Positions 13,523-30,299 of a DNA stretch of 35,699 nt are shown here, piece by piece. Position 1 is the stretch's first letter; each line of letters opens with the position of its first letter. The stretch spans positions 1 through 35,699 of the forward strand of contig VGIO01000008.1 in NCBI GenBank assembly GCA_016867855.1, read 5' to 3'. Under the pieces are notes generated by a model, which was not told the DNA's origin, made no database searches, and saw nothing but the letters and a program-made list of their open reading frames with translations. This stretch comes from Calditrichota bacterium. GTDB taxonomy: Bacteria > Electryoneota > AABM5-125-24 > Hatepunaeales > Hatepunaeaceae. Made by a program: the position numbers and the translations under genes.

Positions 13523-15079
13523 CTAAGGTGAGTAAATCAGCATTACAGTCTGTTCGTCGGTATTAGATTGCAGTTTAACGATGTAACTGCCAGCGGCTAT
13601 CCCCTTGGGCGTCCAGGCAATCCTGTGAAAACCCGCTTCGAGAGCGCCGTTATAGATAAAATCCGTTAAACAACCGCGTGTATCGAATGCCTTCACACTA
13701 ATCTGCCCGGGTTGCGATAGTGCAAATTCGATGTTAGCGGAACTGTTGAAAGGATTTGGATAAACGGCTTTCAAATCGAATACGGCGGCTAGCGTAGCCG
13801 GCAGCGAGACCGATGTCTGCGCCGGATTATAGATAAACGGATAGCGTCCTATATCGGAACGGGTGTTGTATATATCTCCTTCGTCGGTAATGTTCGGACA
13901 GCCAGCGTCGATGCAAGGCGATTTCGAATGGCGGTCGGGGAACGAAGCCCAGGTCAAATGATAATCAGCATCGGAATTGATAGTAAAATTCGCAAAGAGC
14001 GGGTCGGCGTGAATCTCGCCTTCGCCGCCATTCCAACCACCGAAATGATTTGTGGCGTGCAGCCAATAATCATTCCAGCCACTGTTGCCGTGAACTGTGC
14101 CGCCTATTGTCCTGTCGCCAATGCTGGAACCGTTGCCAATGACGATGTTGTTTCTTATCTCAACTTCGGAACCGAACATAAATATCCCGATGGCGTCGTT
14201 CGAACTTGCCATAAGATGTAAAGTATTGCTTTCAAAAGAAATACCTGAAGCATTTAAAATCCATAGACCACGCATCGACCGCATCGAATAAGTGCGAATA
14301 ATATTGCGGTTGATTAATAATTTAAAGGTTCGTTCGATATGGATACCGGTTGCTCCAACATCGGAGCGTGCCTCAATCCAATTGCCGTAAAGAAGCGGGC
14401 TGCTTCGAACTGAGTGAATGCCGTAGGCTTCTCCGCCGCCATAAGCGCGGGCTATGATGAGTTGGTTATTTACAATTTGAGGATTAGACGAATTCTCCAG
14501 TAAAATCGCTTTAACTGAGCTTATCGTATTTGCGCCTGAAGCGCTAATCAAACGATTATTATGAATATACGGCGCAGCGCGGTTGCAGGAAATGCCGATA
14601 CTTAACGCATTGATTGAGCAGCCCTGAATTAATAAACCGGAATGATTATTTATCGAAACGCCCCACCAAGCGCTGTCGATGTCGCAATTTACCAATCTTG
14701 AACGCGCATCGGCTTCCTGGAAAAATTCTATGCCTAACCATTGCGTAGTTCGTCCGTTGCTAAATCTTATGCGTTCATTCTCTTCCACACCGCCTTCGGC
14801 TCGCAACAGTCCAAAAACTGTGAAGCGATATATACCGTTGAATAAAACCTGCACGCCCGGTTCAATAACTAATTCTTCGCCCTCTGGAACATAAATGCTG
14901 TCCATTACATAATACGGCGAGAGATCGCGCAGCCACCGCCCGGACACCGAGCCGAATACAGTCATATCGGCGCAAGCATCGGTAAAGACGGCAACGACCA
15001 GCGCTGATAATATTATAATTGTAAGTATTATCTTGGCGACGCGCTGCGTCATTGCGAATATCTCGCAACTACGAACCAT
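13523..15079 (-). CDS. Secreted right-handed beta-helix protein with C-terminal sorting domain
   Basis: 518 residues. The N-terminus carries a signal peptide: a hydrophobic run IILTIIILSALVVAVFTDA at about 17-35. The middle (about 60-340) contains parallel beta-helix repeats rich in N/G/I ladders (IQGCSINALSIGISCNRAAP, IHNNRLISA, IVNNQLIIARA, LLINRNIIRT). The last ~85 residues (YPNPFNSSANIEFAL...GQISVKAFDTRG...GSYIVKLQS) form a FlgD-Ig/type IX secretion C-terminal domain, 'YPNPFN' being its hallmark. It is probably exported and surface-bound or released, acting on or binding polysaccharide, but no catalytic motif is visible. AAGGA precedes ATG 15079; an internal Met at codon 10 is a weaker alternative. 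Flanked by its own promoter and terminator. Confidence 0.85.
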   Translation of the reverse strand: MVRSCEIFAMTQRVAKIILTIIILSALVVAVFTDACADMTVFGSVSGRWLRDLSPYYVMDSIYVPEGEELVIEPGVQVLFNGIYRFTVFGLLRAEGGVEENERIRFSNGRTTQWLGIEFFQEADARSRLVNCDIDSAWWGVSINNHSGLLIQGCSINALSIGISCNRAAPYIHNNRLISASGANTISSVKAILLENSSNPQIVNNQLIIARAYGGGEAYGIHSVRSSPLLYGNWIEARSDVGATGIHIERTFKLLINRNIIRTYSMRSMRGLWILNASGISFESNTLHLMASSNDAIGIFMFGSEVEIRNNIVIGNGSSIGDRTIGGTVHGNSGWNDYWLHATNHFGGWNGGEGEIHADPLFANFTINSDADYHLTWASFPDRHSKSPCIDAGCPNITDEGDIYNTRSDIGRYPFIYNPAQTSVSLPATLAAVFDLKAVYPNPFNSSANIEFALSQPGQISVKAFDTRGCLTDFIYNGALEAGFHRIAWTPKGIAAGSYIVKLQSNTDEQTVMLIYSP

Positions 15080-25324: not shown

Positions 25325-27001
25325 ATGAGCGCGGAGCATCGCGGCCGCAGCGAGCCGAACATCCTGCAGGACAAGCGCTATCGCGACCTCCTGCAGAAAA
25401 ATCTGGTGCGTCTTTTTTTAACCTACCTCTTCCCACTCATCGTTCTGACCATCTATTTTCACATTCAGTATCGGGCGACCGGCCGCGAGAGCCGTAATCT
25501 GCATCTTAAATCCATCGCCGAATATCAAGCCAACACACTCGACCTGTTTCTATGGGAACGCGTTGTCAATCTCGCCAATCTCATCGACGACCCGCGCGCT
25601 GAATTCCCGCCTTCGACCGGCGCCACCCAAAGACTGCTTATGCACTTAAAAAAGAACAGCGACGCCTTTATCGATATCGGCTATTTCGACTCCTCCGGCG
25701 TGCAGATCGCCTACGCCGGACCGCTGCCCTTTTTAGAGCGGCAGAACTACAGCGCGCAGGAGTGGTTCGTCAAACTGCACAGCGCCCCGACGGAATATAT
25801 CATCACCGACATTTATCTCGGACTGCGTCACGAACCGCATTTCACTATCGCGGTCTGCCGCTGGAAATCAGGCGAATATCACGTATTGCGCGCCAGCCTC
25901 GACCCCAAGAAACTCTACGAATACATCACATCCTTTGAAGGCACGCGCGAGGTTGACATCTCCATCGTCAATCAAGCCGGCTTTTATCAATTGGTCACAC
26001 CGCATGTCGGCACATTGTTGGAATCCTCTTCCATCATCCCGCCGCGTGCGCCGACGTTTGGCGTGCAAACCGTCGATATAGAAAGAACTCGATTATCTTA
26101 CGCATACACCTGGCTGAAGCGCGCCGATTGGGCGGTCATTGTCCAGTGGAATCCGGAATATGCGCCGCCAGTCTTTTCAGCCGTCCAAGCCAAGATACTC
26201 GGTATTTCACTTGCCGTCATTCTCATAATTTTCGGTGTGATAATCATCCGCGCTTGGCACCTGGTGCTGGCGCAGCAGGAGAAGGACCGCGTCGAAAGAC
26301 AACTCGAACACGCTGCCAAATTAGCCGCCATCGGCGAACTTGCCGCCGGCATCGCTCACGAAATCAACAATCCGCTGGCAATCATCTCCGAAGAGGTCGG
26401 GTTGATGAAAGACCTCACGGATCCACAGTTCGGCAGGACACTCGACCTAAACGAAATAATGCCGCGGCTGGATACGATTCAAGAAGCGGTCTTCCGCTGC
26501 CGCGACATAACCCGCAAACTGCTCTTTTTCGTGCGTAAAGCCCCCATCAAACCCGAACGGCACGATGTGAACACCCTCATCGACGAAGTGGTCGTCGGCT
26601 TGCTCGGCGCCGAAATGCGCGTCTCCAACATAGAAATCATCCGCGATTATCAGCCCGACCTGCCGCCGATTATGACCGACCGCCACCAATTCCAGCAAGT
26701 TCTGCTCAACCTGCTCAATAACGCCGTTGACGCCATCGAAGGCAGAGGCTCGATTATGGTCAGCACCAGCCTCGAACAGAATAAACTCGAAATCACCGTC
26801 ACCGACACCGGCAAGGGAATGACCCGCGAACAACTCGATAAAATATTCCTGCCTTTCTACACAACTAAAGAAGTCGGCAAAGGCACGGGCCTTGGTCTGT
26901 CGGTCTCTTATGAGATTATCAAGGGAATGGGCGGCACCATTTCGGTCGAAAGCAAACCCGTCAAGGGCAGCGAATTCACGATTCGACTACCTTTTAAGTA
27001 G
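25325..27001 (+). CDS. Membrane sensor histidine kinase with an extracytoplasmic Cache-like domain
   Basis: 558 residues. A transmembrane helix at about 28-48 (LVRLFLTYLFPLIVLTIYFH) is followed by a ~240-residue periplasmic double-Cache-like sensor region and a second helix at about 290-312. HisKA carries ELAAGIAHEINNPLA with phospho-acceptor His345. The HATPase domain shows the N box (QVLLNLLNNAVDAIEG), DTGKGM, LPFYTTK and GKGTGLGLS. This is the hybrid-free 'NtrB/Cache' kinase type that senses small molecules outside the membrane. It heads a same-strand cluster with a CBS protein, a receiver-transporter fusion and a receiver protein, so its probable targets are those receivers. No PAS or HAMP domain is evident. 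Confidence 0.93.
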   Translation: MSAEHRGRSEPNILQDKRYRDLLQKNLVRLFLTYLFPLIVLTIYFHIQYRATGRESRNLHLKSIAEYQANTLDLFLWERVVNLANLIDDPRAEFPPSTGATQRLLMHLKKNSDAFIDIGYFDSSGVQIAYAGPLPFLERQNYSAQEWFVKLHSAPTEYIITDIYLGLRHEPHFTIAVCRWKSGEYHVLRASLDPKKLYEYITSFEGTREVDISIVNQAGFYQLVTPHVGTLLESSSIIPPRAPTFGVQTVDIERTRLSYAYTWLKRADWAVIVQWNPEYAPPVFSAVQAKILGISLAVILIIFGVIIIRAWHLVLAQQEKDRVERQLEHAAKLAAIGELAAGIAHEINNPLAIISEEVGLMKDLTDPQFGRTLDLNEIMPRLDTIQEAVFRCRDITRKLLFFVRKAPIKPERHDVNTLIDEVVVGLLGAEMRVSNIEIIRDYQPDLPPIMTDRHQFQQVLLNLLNNAVDAIEGRGSIMVSTSLEQNKLEITVTDTGKGMTREQLDKIFLPFYTTKEVGKGTGLGLSVSYEIIKGMGGTISVESKPVKGSEFTIRLPFK

Positions 27002-27093: not shown

Positions 27094-27642
27094 ATGCACC
27101 AAAAACGCGCCAAAGACTTGATGCTTCCATTGTCCGAGTATGCCGTTGTGCCGGAGGACGCAACTATAATGGAAGCGCTCGAAATCCTCGAAGCATCCCA
27201 GAAATCGCTGCCGCCGGGACGTCAGCCGCACCGGGCAGTTCTGGTGCGCGGCCGAAACGGCAAAATCGTCGGCAAACTCGGCCAACTCGGTTTTCTAAAG
27301 AGTCTCGAACCCCGCTACAACGCCTTGGGCGATATCGAGACCCTTTCGCGCGCCGGACTAAGTTCCGAATTCATCTCCTCGATGATGGAGAATATGCGTT
27401 TTTGGCGCGACGACATAACGGATGTCTGCGCCCGCGCCCGCACGACCCGCATTGCCGACGCTATGCACCCGGTAACGGAGAACATCGATGAGAACGCATA
27501 CATCGTCGAAGCCGTGCATATGCTTGTGATGTGGCAGACATTATCGATTTTAGTCACCCGCAACGGCGAAGTCGTTGGCATTCTGCGCTTATCGGATGTA
27601 TTCGGCGAAATTTCGCACTATATTCAATCCTGCCCGAAGTAA
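27094..27642 (+). CDS. Two-CBS-domain protein
   Basis: 182 residues. The first CBS motif spans about 1-75 (AKDLMLPLSEYAVVPEDATI, HRAVLVRGRNGKIVGKLGQL). The second spans about 120-180 (RIADAMHPVTENIDENAYIV, QTLSILVTRNGEVVGILRLS). A helical linker rich in Met and Glu separates them. CBS pairs bind adenine nucleotides or nucleotide second messengers and often gate transporters and channels. Its place between a kinase and a receiver-transporter fusion suggests it senses energy status for that transporter, which is inference. The ATG lacks an evident Shine-Dalgarno. Its stop is 19 bases before the next start. Confidence 0.88.
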   Translation: MHQKRAKDLMLPLSEYAVVPEDATIMEALEILEASQKSLPPGRQPHRAVLVRGRNGKIVGKLGQLGFLKSLEPRYNALGDIETLSRAGLSSEFISSMMENMRFWRDDITDVCARARTTRIADAMHPVTENIDENAYIVEAVHMLVMWQTLSILVTRNGEVVGILRLSDVFGEISHYIQSCPK

Positions 27643-27661
27643 ATTCTTGAGGAGAAATAAA

Positions 27662-29698
27662 TTGCCTAAGATAATGCTCGTCGATGACGAGGAACAATTT
27701 CGCACCTCGCTCAAACAGCGGATAGAATTGCGCGGCTATGATGTCCTCCCGCTTGACAACGGACAGGACGCTGTCAAAGCCGTTCGCGCCGACAACGACA
27801 TCGAAGTCGTCATCCTCGACCGCAAAATGCCCGGCATCTCAGGCGAACAAGCGCTCAAAGAAATCAAACTCTTTCGACCTGAACTGCCGGTGATTATGCT
27901 GACCGGCAACGCCACTATGGCTTCCGCGATGGAAGTCGGCAAGATGGATGCTTATGCCTATCTCGAAAAACCCTGCGATTTTGAGAAACTCATCGCGACT
28001 GTCGAGACAGCGCGCAAGGAACGTATCCACGCCGCTGCGCGGCACGAGATACCCGTCATCGAAAAAGGTTCCCTCTGGAAGTGGCTGGTCGGTTCGCATA
28101 ACTACCGGCCCGGCATCGTAGCGCTTGGTTTATTGATATTCCTCGCAATGGCCTTTATGCCTACACCGCGTCGAATGAGTGAATTGCTATCGTTCAAGAA
28201 AAGCGGCGATAAGGCAGCGGATATCAACATCGGCTACGCCAACTGGAGTAAGATGAAGGATGGCGAATCTATAACTGACTATTACAGCCGCACCGCCAAG
28301 GTCGGCACAGTAGTCGAAGATGAACAGGGCAGGGAGAGAACATTGCCGTTAACGCTCGACCAAGCGGCGCGCCGGGCGAGGATGATGTTAGCCGTGCTGA
28401 TTGTCTGCGCCTTGTTCTGGGCGACAGGCGCGCTGCCCATAGGCATCACATCGTTAGTCATAGGCTTGGCTATGTATTACGGCGATATCTTAAAGCCCGA
28501 CGATATCGCTCAGGCTTACGCCAAGGATGCGGTCATATTTATCTTCGGTGTTCTATCCGTGGCGTTGGCAATCTCAAAAACCGGCCTCGATCGGCGCATC
28601 GGCTTATTGCTGCTCGGCACCTCTAATTCGCTCTGGAAGTTGATGTTCATCTTTCTGCCTTTGATGGCGGTGGCTTGTTCGTTTATGTCCGAGCATGCTT
28701 TGGTCGCCTTTATGATGCCGGTGATGATGTTAGTCTATGCCTCTTCGGTTCAAGCCGCCGGAATAAAAAAAGACCGGACACTGGCCGTGATGTTTGTCCT
28801 CTCGATGTGTTTTGCCGCTAATATGGGAGGACCGGGTTCGCCAGCCGCGGGAGGGCGAAATGCCGTGATGTTGGGAATTCTCTCCGAATACGACCAGACC
28901 ATTAATTTCGGACAGTGGATGAAATACGGTCTGCCGTTTGTGCCGGTGATGGCGCTGATCGTGGCGGCTTATTTCTATCTGACCTTCCGCTCGAAAATAA
29001 AAGTCAAACAGTTGAATGTCTCGGCCCATGTCCGCGCTGCTGCCGAAAAAATCGGACCGATGAACAAGACCGAATATATCACCGCCGCAATTCTAATCCT
29101 GTTGATTGCGATGTGGTGCTTCACCAGCGAAGAGAAGGGTATGGGCGGACCAGTGCTTATCACGATTGTGCTGTTGAACCTGTTCCACATCCTGCGCTGG
29201 AAGGATATCTCACGCATCCAATGGGAGGTCGTCGCGCTCTATGCCGGCGCCTGCGCCATCGGCAAAGGCCTTTCGATGACCGGCGCCGCTCTATTTATGG
29301 CTGACAGCGCCGTTAACTTGATGCCGGACTTTATGAAAGCCGGCGAAGGCTTGGCTATTGCCTCCAGTCTCATCACCGGCATTGTTACTAACTTTATGAG
29401 CGACGGCGCGACTGTAGCCGCTATAGGTCCTATCACCGTGCCAATGGCTATCATCGCTAACACCCATCCCTGGATGGTCGGTTTAGCCACTGCTTTTGCA
29501 TCGTCCTTCGCCCATATGCTGATTATCGGAACGCCTAACAATGCCATTGCCTACGCTCTGGCAAAGGACCCGATTTCCGGCGAACAATTACTGACTTTAG
29601 GCGATTTTTTTAAGCACGGCGGCATTATTCTGTTGCTCTCATTTGCCGTGCTGTGGGGCTGGTGTATCTTCGGTTACTGGCGCTGGATAGGATTTTAA
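27662..29698 (+). CDS. Response-regulator receiver fused to an SLC13/DASS-type transporter
   Basis: 678 residues. GAGGAG (27649-27654) seven bases before TTG 27662 fixes the start; the frame is open farther up but overlaps the CBS gene. Residues 2-125 are a complete receiver domain: acidic Asp8-Asp9, phospho-acceptor Asp53 in VILDRKMPG, Thr81, Lys103. A linker leads to a transmembrane helix at about 150-166, a ~75-residue soluble loop, then a polytopic SLC13/DASS-like permease (about 240-678) with GGPGSP...RNAVMLG (389-405) and IIGTPNNAI (621-629). The two SNT carboxylate motifs of DASS are replaced by SEH (343-345) and SDG (580-582), so substrate and coupling ion may differ. Phosphorylation of Asp53 by the upstream kinase could gate transport directly. 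Confidence 0.9.
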   Translation: MPKIMLVDDEEQFRTSLKQRIELRGYDVLPLDNGQDAVKAVRADNDIEVVILDRKMPGISGEQALKEIKLFRPELPVIMLTGNATMASAMEVGKMDAYAYLEKPCDFEKLIATVETARKERIHAAARHEIPVIEKGSLWKWLVGSHNYRPGIVALGLLIFLAMAFMPTPRRMSELLSFKKSGDKAADINIGYANWSKMKDGESITDYYSRTAKVGTVVEDEQGRERTLPLTLDQAARRARMMLAVLIVCALFWATGALPIGITSLVIGLAMYYGDILKPDDIAQAYAKDAVIFIFGVLSVALAISKTGLDRRIGLLLLGTSNSLWKLMFIFLPLMAVACSFMSEHALVAFMMPVMMLVYASSVQAAGIKKDRTLAVMFVLSMCFAANMGGPGSPAAGGRNAVMLGILSEYDQTINFGQWMKYGLPFVPVMALIVAAYFYLTFRSKIKVKQLNVSAHVRAAAEKIGPMNKTEYITAAILILLIAMWCFTSEEKGMGGPVLITIVLLNLFHILRWKDISRIQWEVVALYAGACAIGKGLSMTGAALFMADSAVNLMPDFMKAGEGLAIASSLITGIVTNFMSDGATVAAIGPITVPMAIIANTHPWMVGLATAFASSFAHMLIIGTPNNAIAYALAKDPISGEQLLTLGDFFKHGGIILLLSFAVLWGWCIFGYWRWIGF

Positions 29699-29810: not shown

Positions 29811-30299
29811 ATGGCAGGCAATATTAAACTCCTCATCGTTGACGATGAGGTCAAATTTCTGGATGCGATTGCCGAGCGGCTTAAAATGCGCGGCTTCGAT
29901 GTCGCCAAAGCCACGGATGGTTATCAGGCTCTCGAAATTGCCAAGAATGAAAAGTTTGACCTGGCGCTACTCGACCTCAAGATGCCTGGTATGGACGGCA
30001 AACAGGTCTTAGCGGAAATCAAAACCCAGCACAAATTCATCGAAGTCATCATCCTGACCGGGCACGGTTCGCTGGAGTCGGCGGTCGAATGCACCAAACT
30101 CGGCGCCTTCAGCTACCTCCCCAAACCCTATGAACTCGACAAACTCATCGACACCCTGCGGTCGGCTTATGAAGCGCGGATGCGCAAGAAGTTCGCCATC
30201 GACGAAGCGCGGATGGCGAAAATCCAGCAGATCGCGACTGGACAATCCGCGCTCGGCATCCTGCGCAGCCTGCGAGAATTAGACGATGATGTGAAATAG
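29811..30299 (+). CDS. Stand-alone response-regulator receiver protein
   Basis: 162 residues. The receiver domain covers about 5-122, with Asp11-Asp12, phospho-acceptor Asp55 (LALLDLKMPG), Thr83 region (VIILTGHGS) and Lys105 region (YLPKPY). The remaining ~40 residues are a charged helical tail (RKKFAIDEARMAKIQQIATG) without a DNA-binding or enzymatic domain. It resembles CheY/Spo0F-like phosphate shuttles or NtrC-type receivers that lost their output. In this cluster it could compete with the receiver of the transporter fusion for phosphoryl groups. A repeat B element begins one base after its stop codon. Confidence 0.9.
   Translation: MAGNIKLLIVDDEVKFLDAIAERLKMRGFDVAKATDGYQALEIAKNEKFDLALLDLKMPGMDGKQVLAEIKTQHKFIEVIILTGHGSLESAVECTKLGAFSYLPKPYELDKLIDTLRSAYEARMRKKFAIDEARMAKIQQIATGQSALGILRSLRELDDDVK

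Follow-up and report, generated by a model that had tools for sequence, protein, structure and literature searches.

A single gene in the 35,699-nucleotide stretch of DNA analysed here (the window) encodes a CheY/NtrC-type receiver domain, a 30-residue juxtamembrane linker and a DASS/SLC13 permease, in this order as assigned by Pfam and Foldseek. The protein is probably a membrane-embedded response regulator, in which transport is the output and is gated by phosphorylation. Both halves have precedents, and so do a regulatory domain on a DASS protein and a two-component part on a transporter. As the original prediction had supposed, no described receiver-DASS protein was found in the open-licence literature searched; the architecture may sit unremarked in domain databases.

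Receiver, linker and permease in one reading frame

Translation of positions 27662-29698 on the forward strand gave 678 codons with a single terminal stop and no interruption (Table 1). The original prediction had held that one open frame crosses the junction and is not an annotation artefact, to be refuted by a stop or frameshift between the halves; none occurs in the 678 residues. The strong ribosome site that it had placed before the receiver was found as AGGAG about 7 nt ahead of a TTG start codon. The open frame extends upstream as far as another TTG at 27575, but this extension would run into the CBS gene, and the homologues have their N-termini at 27662, which was preferred as the start. 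By scanning 84,980 species genomes, 212 relatives were obtained, and the best 80 were retrieved, all of which (80/80, in named genomes) carry receiver, linker and DASS domain in one ORF, the ranking by score favouring full-length matches. An AlphaFold2 model of the fusion built from 60 homologues had a mean pLDDT of 88.4 and a pTM of 0.81. In Foldseek, its N-terminus matched receiver domains (for instance, the NtrC1 receiver 1zy2, rmsd 2.1), and its membrane part matched NaS1, NaCT, VcINDY, Pho90 and ArsB. In the Pfam search, the N-terminus was assigned to Response_reg with no match to an SPX domain, and neither an SLC5 nor a kinase domain was found within the fusion.

Response_reg (PF00072) was detected at residues 4-114 with E = 8.4e-24 and 84.3 bits, above the gathering threshold of 30.2, and all residues claimed for a complete receiver are in place: the acceptor D53, the acidic pocket D8/D9, T81 and K103. 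In an alignment including the best 80 of the 212 relatives, D8, D53, T81 and K103 were invariant in 81 of 81 rows and D9 was found in 80 of 81. Such invariance of the catalytic residues over many phyla indicates that phosphorylation of the fused receiver is under selection. The fusion shares the receiver fold and all catalytic residues with NtrC-family receivers such as NtrC1 (1zy2), whereas its output is a membrane permease and theirs are AAA+/DNA-binding domains. In the tree, the fused receivers formed a single clade (support 0.997) adjoining the downstream stand-alone receivers. One distant fusion (L036:238-2307, G020; 51% identity) keeps the architecture and has a receiver with D53 changed to A and D9 to P, a natural pseudo-receiver on a transporter; this protein, if functional at all, would work without phosphorylation.

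The segment from receiver to TM1 was 30 residues long in 77 of the 81 rows of the alignment including the best 80 of 212 relatives. The loop after TM1 (residues 169-237) varied between 64 and 84 residues, with 68 residues in 61 of 81 rows, and is presumed to be periplasmic, its sidedness being taken from the DASS topology.

Table 1. Features of the fusion gene and its operon in the window
Feature	Position	Strand	Evidence or remark
Membrane histidine kinase, probable phosphodonor	25325..27001	+	Two TM helices, dCache-like periplasmic sensor, HisKA (AHEINNPL), HATPase_c
182-aa protein with confident C-terminal CBS domain	27094..27642	+	Pfam CBS 4.2e-9
Shine-Dalgarno-like TGAGGAGA ahead of TTG start	27648..27655	+	Sequence
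REC-DASS fusion protein, 678 aa	27662..29698	+	Translation, Pfam, homologue alignment, AF2
Receiver domain, residues 1-121	27662..28024	+	Pfam 8.4e-24; residue conservation; Foldseek NtrC1
Juxtamembrane linker, residues 121-150	28022..28111	+	Length conserved; RHEIP, W141, G144, R149, P150 conserved
TM1 and following conserved loop	28109..28372	+	AF2 secondary structure; model helix 150-164
DASS/SLC13-fold permease, residues 233-678	28358..29695	+	Pfam, AF2, Foldseek
SEH, residues 343-345, at VcINDY S150-N151-T152	28688..28696	+	VcINDY alignment; 81/81
GGPGSPAAGGRN loop, residues 389-400	28826..28861	+	Invariant R399 at VcINDY P202
SDG, residues 580-582, at VcINDY S377-N378-V379 (second SNT motif)	29399..29407	+	VcINDY alignment; 81/81
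Stand-alone receiver, 162 aa, conserved C-terminal tail, without output domain	29811..30299	+	Pfam Response_reg 1e-30

Altered binding-site motifs of the permease

Na_sulph_symp (PF00939) was detected at residues 238-670 (E = 1.4e-38, 133.5 bits against a cut-off of 27), and the Foldseek matches of the permease included NaS1 (7.7e-18), NaCT (5.7e-17), VcINDY (7.9e-16) and the Pho90 structures 8r33-8r35; the score for the NCBIfam DASS subfamily (TIGR00785) was 178.8 bits, below its cut-off of 198.6. The GGxG and GTPNN motifs expected in the permease are present, as GGPG and GTPNN. The description as an SLC13-like permease thus holds for the fold, as seen in Pfam and Foldseek, and has to be narrowed otherwise: as read from its sequence, the permease is non-canonical and falls into a diverged clade of DASS proteins whose predicted binding site is rebuilt. 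VcINDY, NaCT, NaS1 and LaINDY have in common with it the fold, the permease length, the two hairpin-tip motifs and the TP-N motif, whereas the fusion has SEH and SDG in place of SNT and Arg399 in place of VcINDY Pro202, and adds the N-terminal receiver and the loop of about 68 residues behind TM1. SEH, SDG and R399 were invariant in all 81 rows (including the best 80 of 212 relatives) and both SNT signatures were absent, with some bias for SDG, which stood in one of the scan patterns, SEH and R399 lying outside them. Arg399 is buried. The median identity to the window protein was 64% for the DASS part and 54% for the receiver, indicating that the better conserved DASS part is not a decaying anchor.

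In VcINDY, N151 coordinates Na1 as well as the substrate (PMC13394699), and in the LaINDY exchanger Arg159 and His392 replace two sodium ions, Arg159 pairing with Glu146 (PMC7553777). By analogy, E344, H345, R399 and D581 of the fusion may form a charge-compensated site, which could be Na+-independent or H+-linked. Because SNT is replaced by SEH and SDG, Na+-coupled dicarboxylate or sulfate transport is not to be assumed, nor can transport activity of the fusion be presupposed.

Operon, spread and unfused relatives

The gene order in the window is dCache kinase, CBS protein, fusion and stand-alone receiver. The kinase (Pfam HATPase_c 5e-28, HisKA 1.1e-7 and dCache_1 5.9e-8, the last under the gathering score), which had been described as adjacent, lies two genes upstream on the same strand; the CBS protein is a possible adenine-nucleotide sensor. 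A DNA-binding regulator is missing from the window operon, whose one further receiver lacks an output domain. Among the best 80 loci, 67 have an HK core on the same strand no further than 1.5 kb ahead of the fusion (upstream sequence exceeds 1.8 kb at 68 of the 80), 40 have a CBS relative as the closest upstream gene, and in 68 the first same-strand gene after the fusion encodes a receiver. When the flanking ORFs of these 80 loci were clustered, no metabolic gene emerged as a conserved neighbour hinting at the substrate, and the largest cluster was mostly antisense noise. Pairwise distances in 51 operons were correlated among HK, fused receiver and DASS part (0.82-0.85), and those of the kinase correlated with the stand-alone receiver and the fused receiver at 0.87 and 0.84, respectively, values that do not separate the two candidate partners. 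Since the kinase correlates at least equally with the stand-alone receiver, the latter may be the main phosphoacceptor. At five loci (L095, L098, L099, L118 and L143), the kinase by the fusion has a receiver N-terminal to its dCache sensor, an unusual order, and is 681-692 aa long. Elsewhere in the window (13523-15079), a 518-aa protein carries a type IX secretion sorting tail (Por_Secre_tail) just under the cut-off.

Among 39 genomes of the same phylum, the DASS part was found at 60% identity or more in 16, 15 of which have it together with the receiver in one frame of 677-714 aa, the remaining one (G032) being broken by a frameshift; full-length relatives of 51-66% identity occur in 14 other genomes of the window's phylum. 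In G032:C565 (L037:3190-5308), a frameshift inside the DASS domain splits the fusion on a short contig of a fragmented MAG, probably through an assembly error. The best 80 relatives, nearly all MAGs, come from Zixibacteria, Electryoneota, Acidobacteriota, Planctomycetota, Gemmatimonadota, Desulfobacterota, Myxococcota, Calditrichota and others, a phylum count that may be inflated by MAG binning errors; their tree shows phylum-wise clustering, yet is mixed. At L086:5461-8019, the fusion frame has 852 codons, about 170 residues more than the window protein, and a long tree branch. Spread by plasmid was rejected, as no PLSDB record covered 80% of the query.

In another phylum, close DASS relatives occur in 7 of the 297 genomes sampled; one of the seven is fused and the other six are not. 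The two domains are not always separate genes, which would have refuted the original prediction, for they are fused in all 80 best relatives; in some close relatives, they are indeed separate, so fusion is not required. The six unfused proteins (547-576 aa, 48-51% identity) have SEH, GGPGSPAAGGRN, SDG and TPNN as in the fusion and mostly adjoin HK, REC or CBS genes, showing that this DASS branch is associated with two-component genes, fused or not. Three of the six have a separate receiver gene 18-45 bp upstream, which is degenerate in one of them (L146); the gene order at L144 is CBS, receiver, DASS, kinase, receiver. The tree gave no support for an origin of the fused receiver in the receiver gene ahead of an unfused DASS, and in it the fused receivers group with the downstream stand-alone ones; since the upstream receivers are not their closest kin, such an origin is not claimed.

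A paralogous operon (L025:7547-12944, L031:4056-9400, L038, L039, L041 and L143) consists of a dCache kinase, a receiver or tandem-receiver protein, a DASS protein of about 615 aa and a receiver-CBS fusion. This DASS protein has a long N-terminal region, no receiver, and SDH and ADG at the SEH and SDG positions, so that the non-canonical DASS branch is a wider one; receiver, DASS and CBS parts are thus combined repeatedly and fused in differing ways. MAHTAVAAT and N-V-A-type motifs mark a third group of divergent DASS proteins (L028:12848-14659, L030:12596-14074, L033:14077-15615 and L022, the window's own genome), which adjoins the operon in some genomes.

Probable gating of transport and alternative readings

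In the mechanism that we favour, the dCache kinase would sense an extracytoplasmic cue and phosphorylate Asp53 in the cytoplasmic N-terminal receiver. The resulting change in the alpha4-beta5-alpha5 face would be passed through the 30-residue juxtamembrane segment to TM1, in the scaffold domain of the DASS part, and alter the elevator movement, opening or closing the path of a small anion, for uptake or release, post-translationally. The likely role of the stand-alone receiver is to compete for phosphate, as a sink or relay, and that of the CBS protein to supply an energy-status input. The invariant catalytic residues, the upstream kinase, the correlated distances of HK, fused receiver and DASS part, the single receiver clade, the lack of a DNA-binding regulator in the window operon, the fixed spacing between receiver and TM1 and the well-conserved DASS part argue for gating; the replaced SNT motifs, the L036 protein lacking D53, the unfused relatives and the kinase tracking the stand-alone receiver argue against it. 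The strongest functional precedent, by analogy, is the SPX domain on the yeast DASS proteins Pho87 and Pho90, removal of which from the N-terminus raises phosphate uptake up to eightfold (PMC7381174). Like the fusion, Pho90, Pho87 and Pho91 carry a cytoplasmic regulatory domain N-terminal to a DASS-fold permease; in the Pho90 type, this domain restricts transport (PMC7381174), a functional analogy for the fusion. SPX senses inositol pyrophosphates, whereas the bacterial fusion has a phospho-receiver and an operon-encoded kinase, and its binding-site residues differ. The fuller claim of a new response-regulator class, in which Asp53 phosphorylation directly gates a DASS-fold permease with an SEH/SDG/Arg site, independently of transcription and in several phyla, could go either way.

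The main rival is a transceptor or co-sensor, in which substrate occupancy of the DASS part would alter the phosphate gain or loss of the fused receiver, or kinase docking, so that the transporter would inform the kinase, and the stand-alone receiver would relay the signal. We regard it as rather unlikely. The altered SEH/SDG site could favour binding over transport, and the stand-alone receiver, next to the fusion in 68 of the 80 best loci, tracks the kinase slightly better in its distances than the fused receiver does; this receiver, however, has no output domain, and the kinase already has its own periplasmic dCache-like domain. Sensing transporter-kinase fusions do exist: CbrA, in which SLC5-STAC is joined to a histidine kinase, is a histidine transporter (PMC13022988, PMC7918813). 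CbrA and CrbS(MxtR) thus resemble the fusion in having two-component signalling and a secondary transporter in one polypeptide, but there an SLC5 (LeuT-type) transporter is attached to the kinase, on the sensor side, whereas here a DASS protein is attached to the receiver, on the output side, without STAC.

Still less probable, in our judgement, is a docking or phosphate-sink module, in which the receiver would bring the transporter to the kinase or buffer phosphate without gating transport. Phosphate sinks made of single receivers are established in chemotaxis, one operon here encodes two phosphorylatable receivers, and the unfused DASS relatives do without a fused receiver; a mere tether, however, need not retain its catalytic residues in 81 of 81 rows together with a fixed linker length. 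Joining of two adjacent genes by a sequencing error in annotation or assembly, for which the frameshift-split relative G032 on its fragmented MAG contig could be cited, has a negligible probability and is refuted by the full-length relatives of the same phylum and the single ORF in all 80 best loci, with a junction conserved in sequence and length.

The usual targets of response regulators are DNA, RNA, second messengers or partner proteins. The recurrence of the fusion and its neighbouring kinase in many phyla suggests that bacteria may switch a transporter directly rather than genes. If phosphorylation gating is confirmed, the transport step would be the output of a two-component system, a bacterial parallel to the SPX-gated phosphate transporters, raising the question of by what means a receiver could drive the movement of an elevator transporter; bacteria of several phyla would then have fast, transcription-independent two-component control over solute flux. 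The altered yet invariant binding-site residues suggest that the SLC13/DASS fold includes a branch yet to be characterised.
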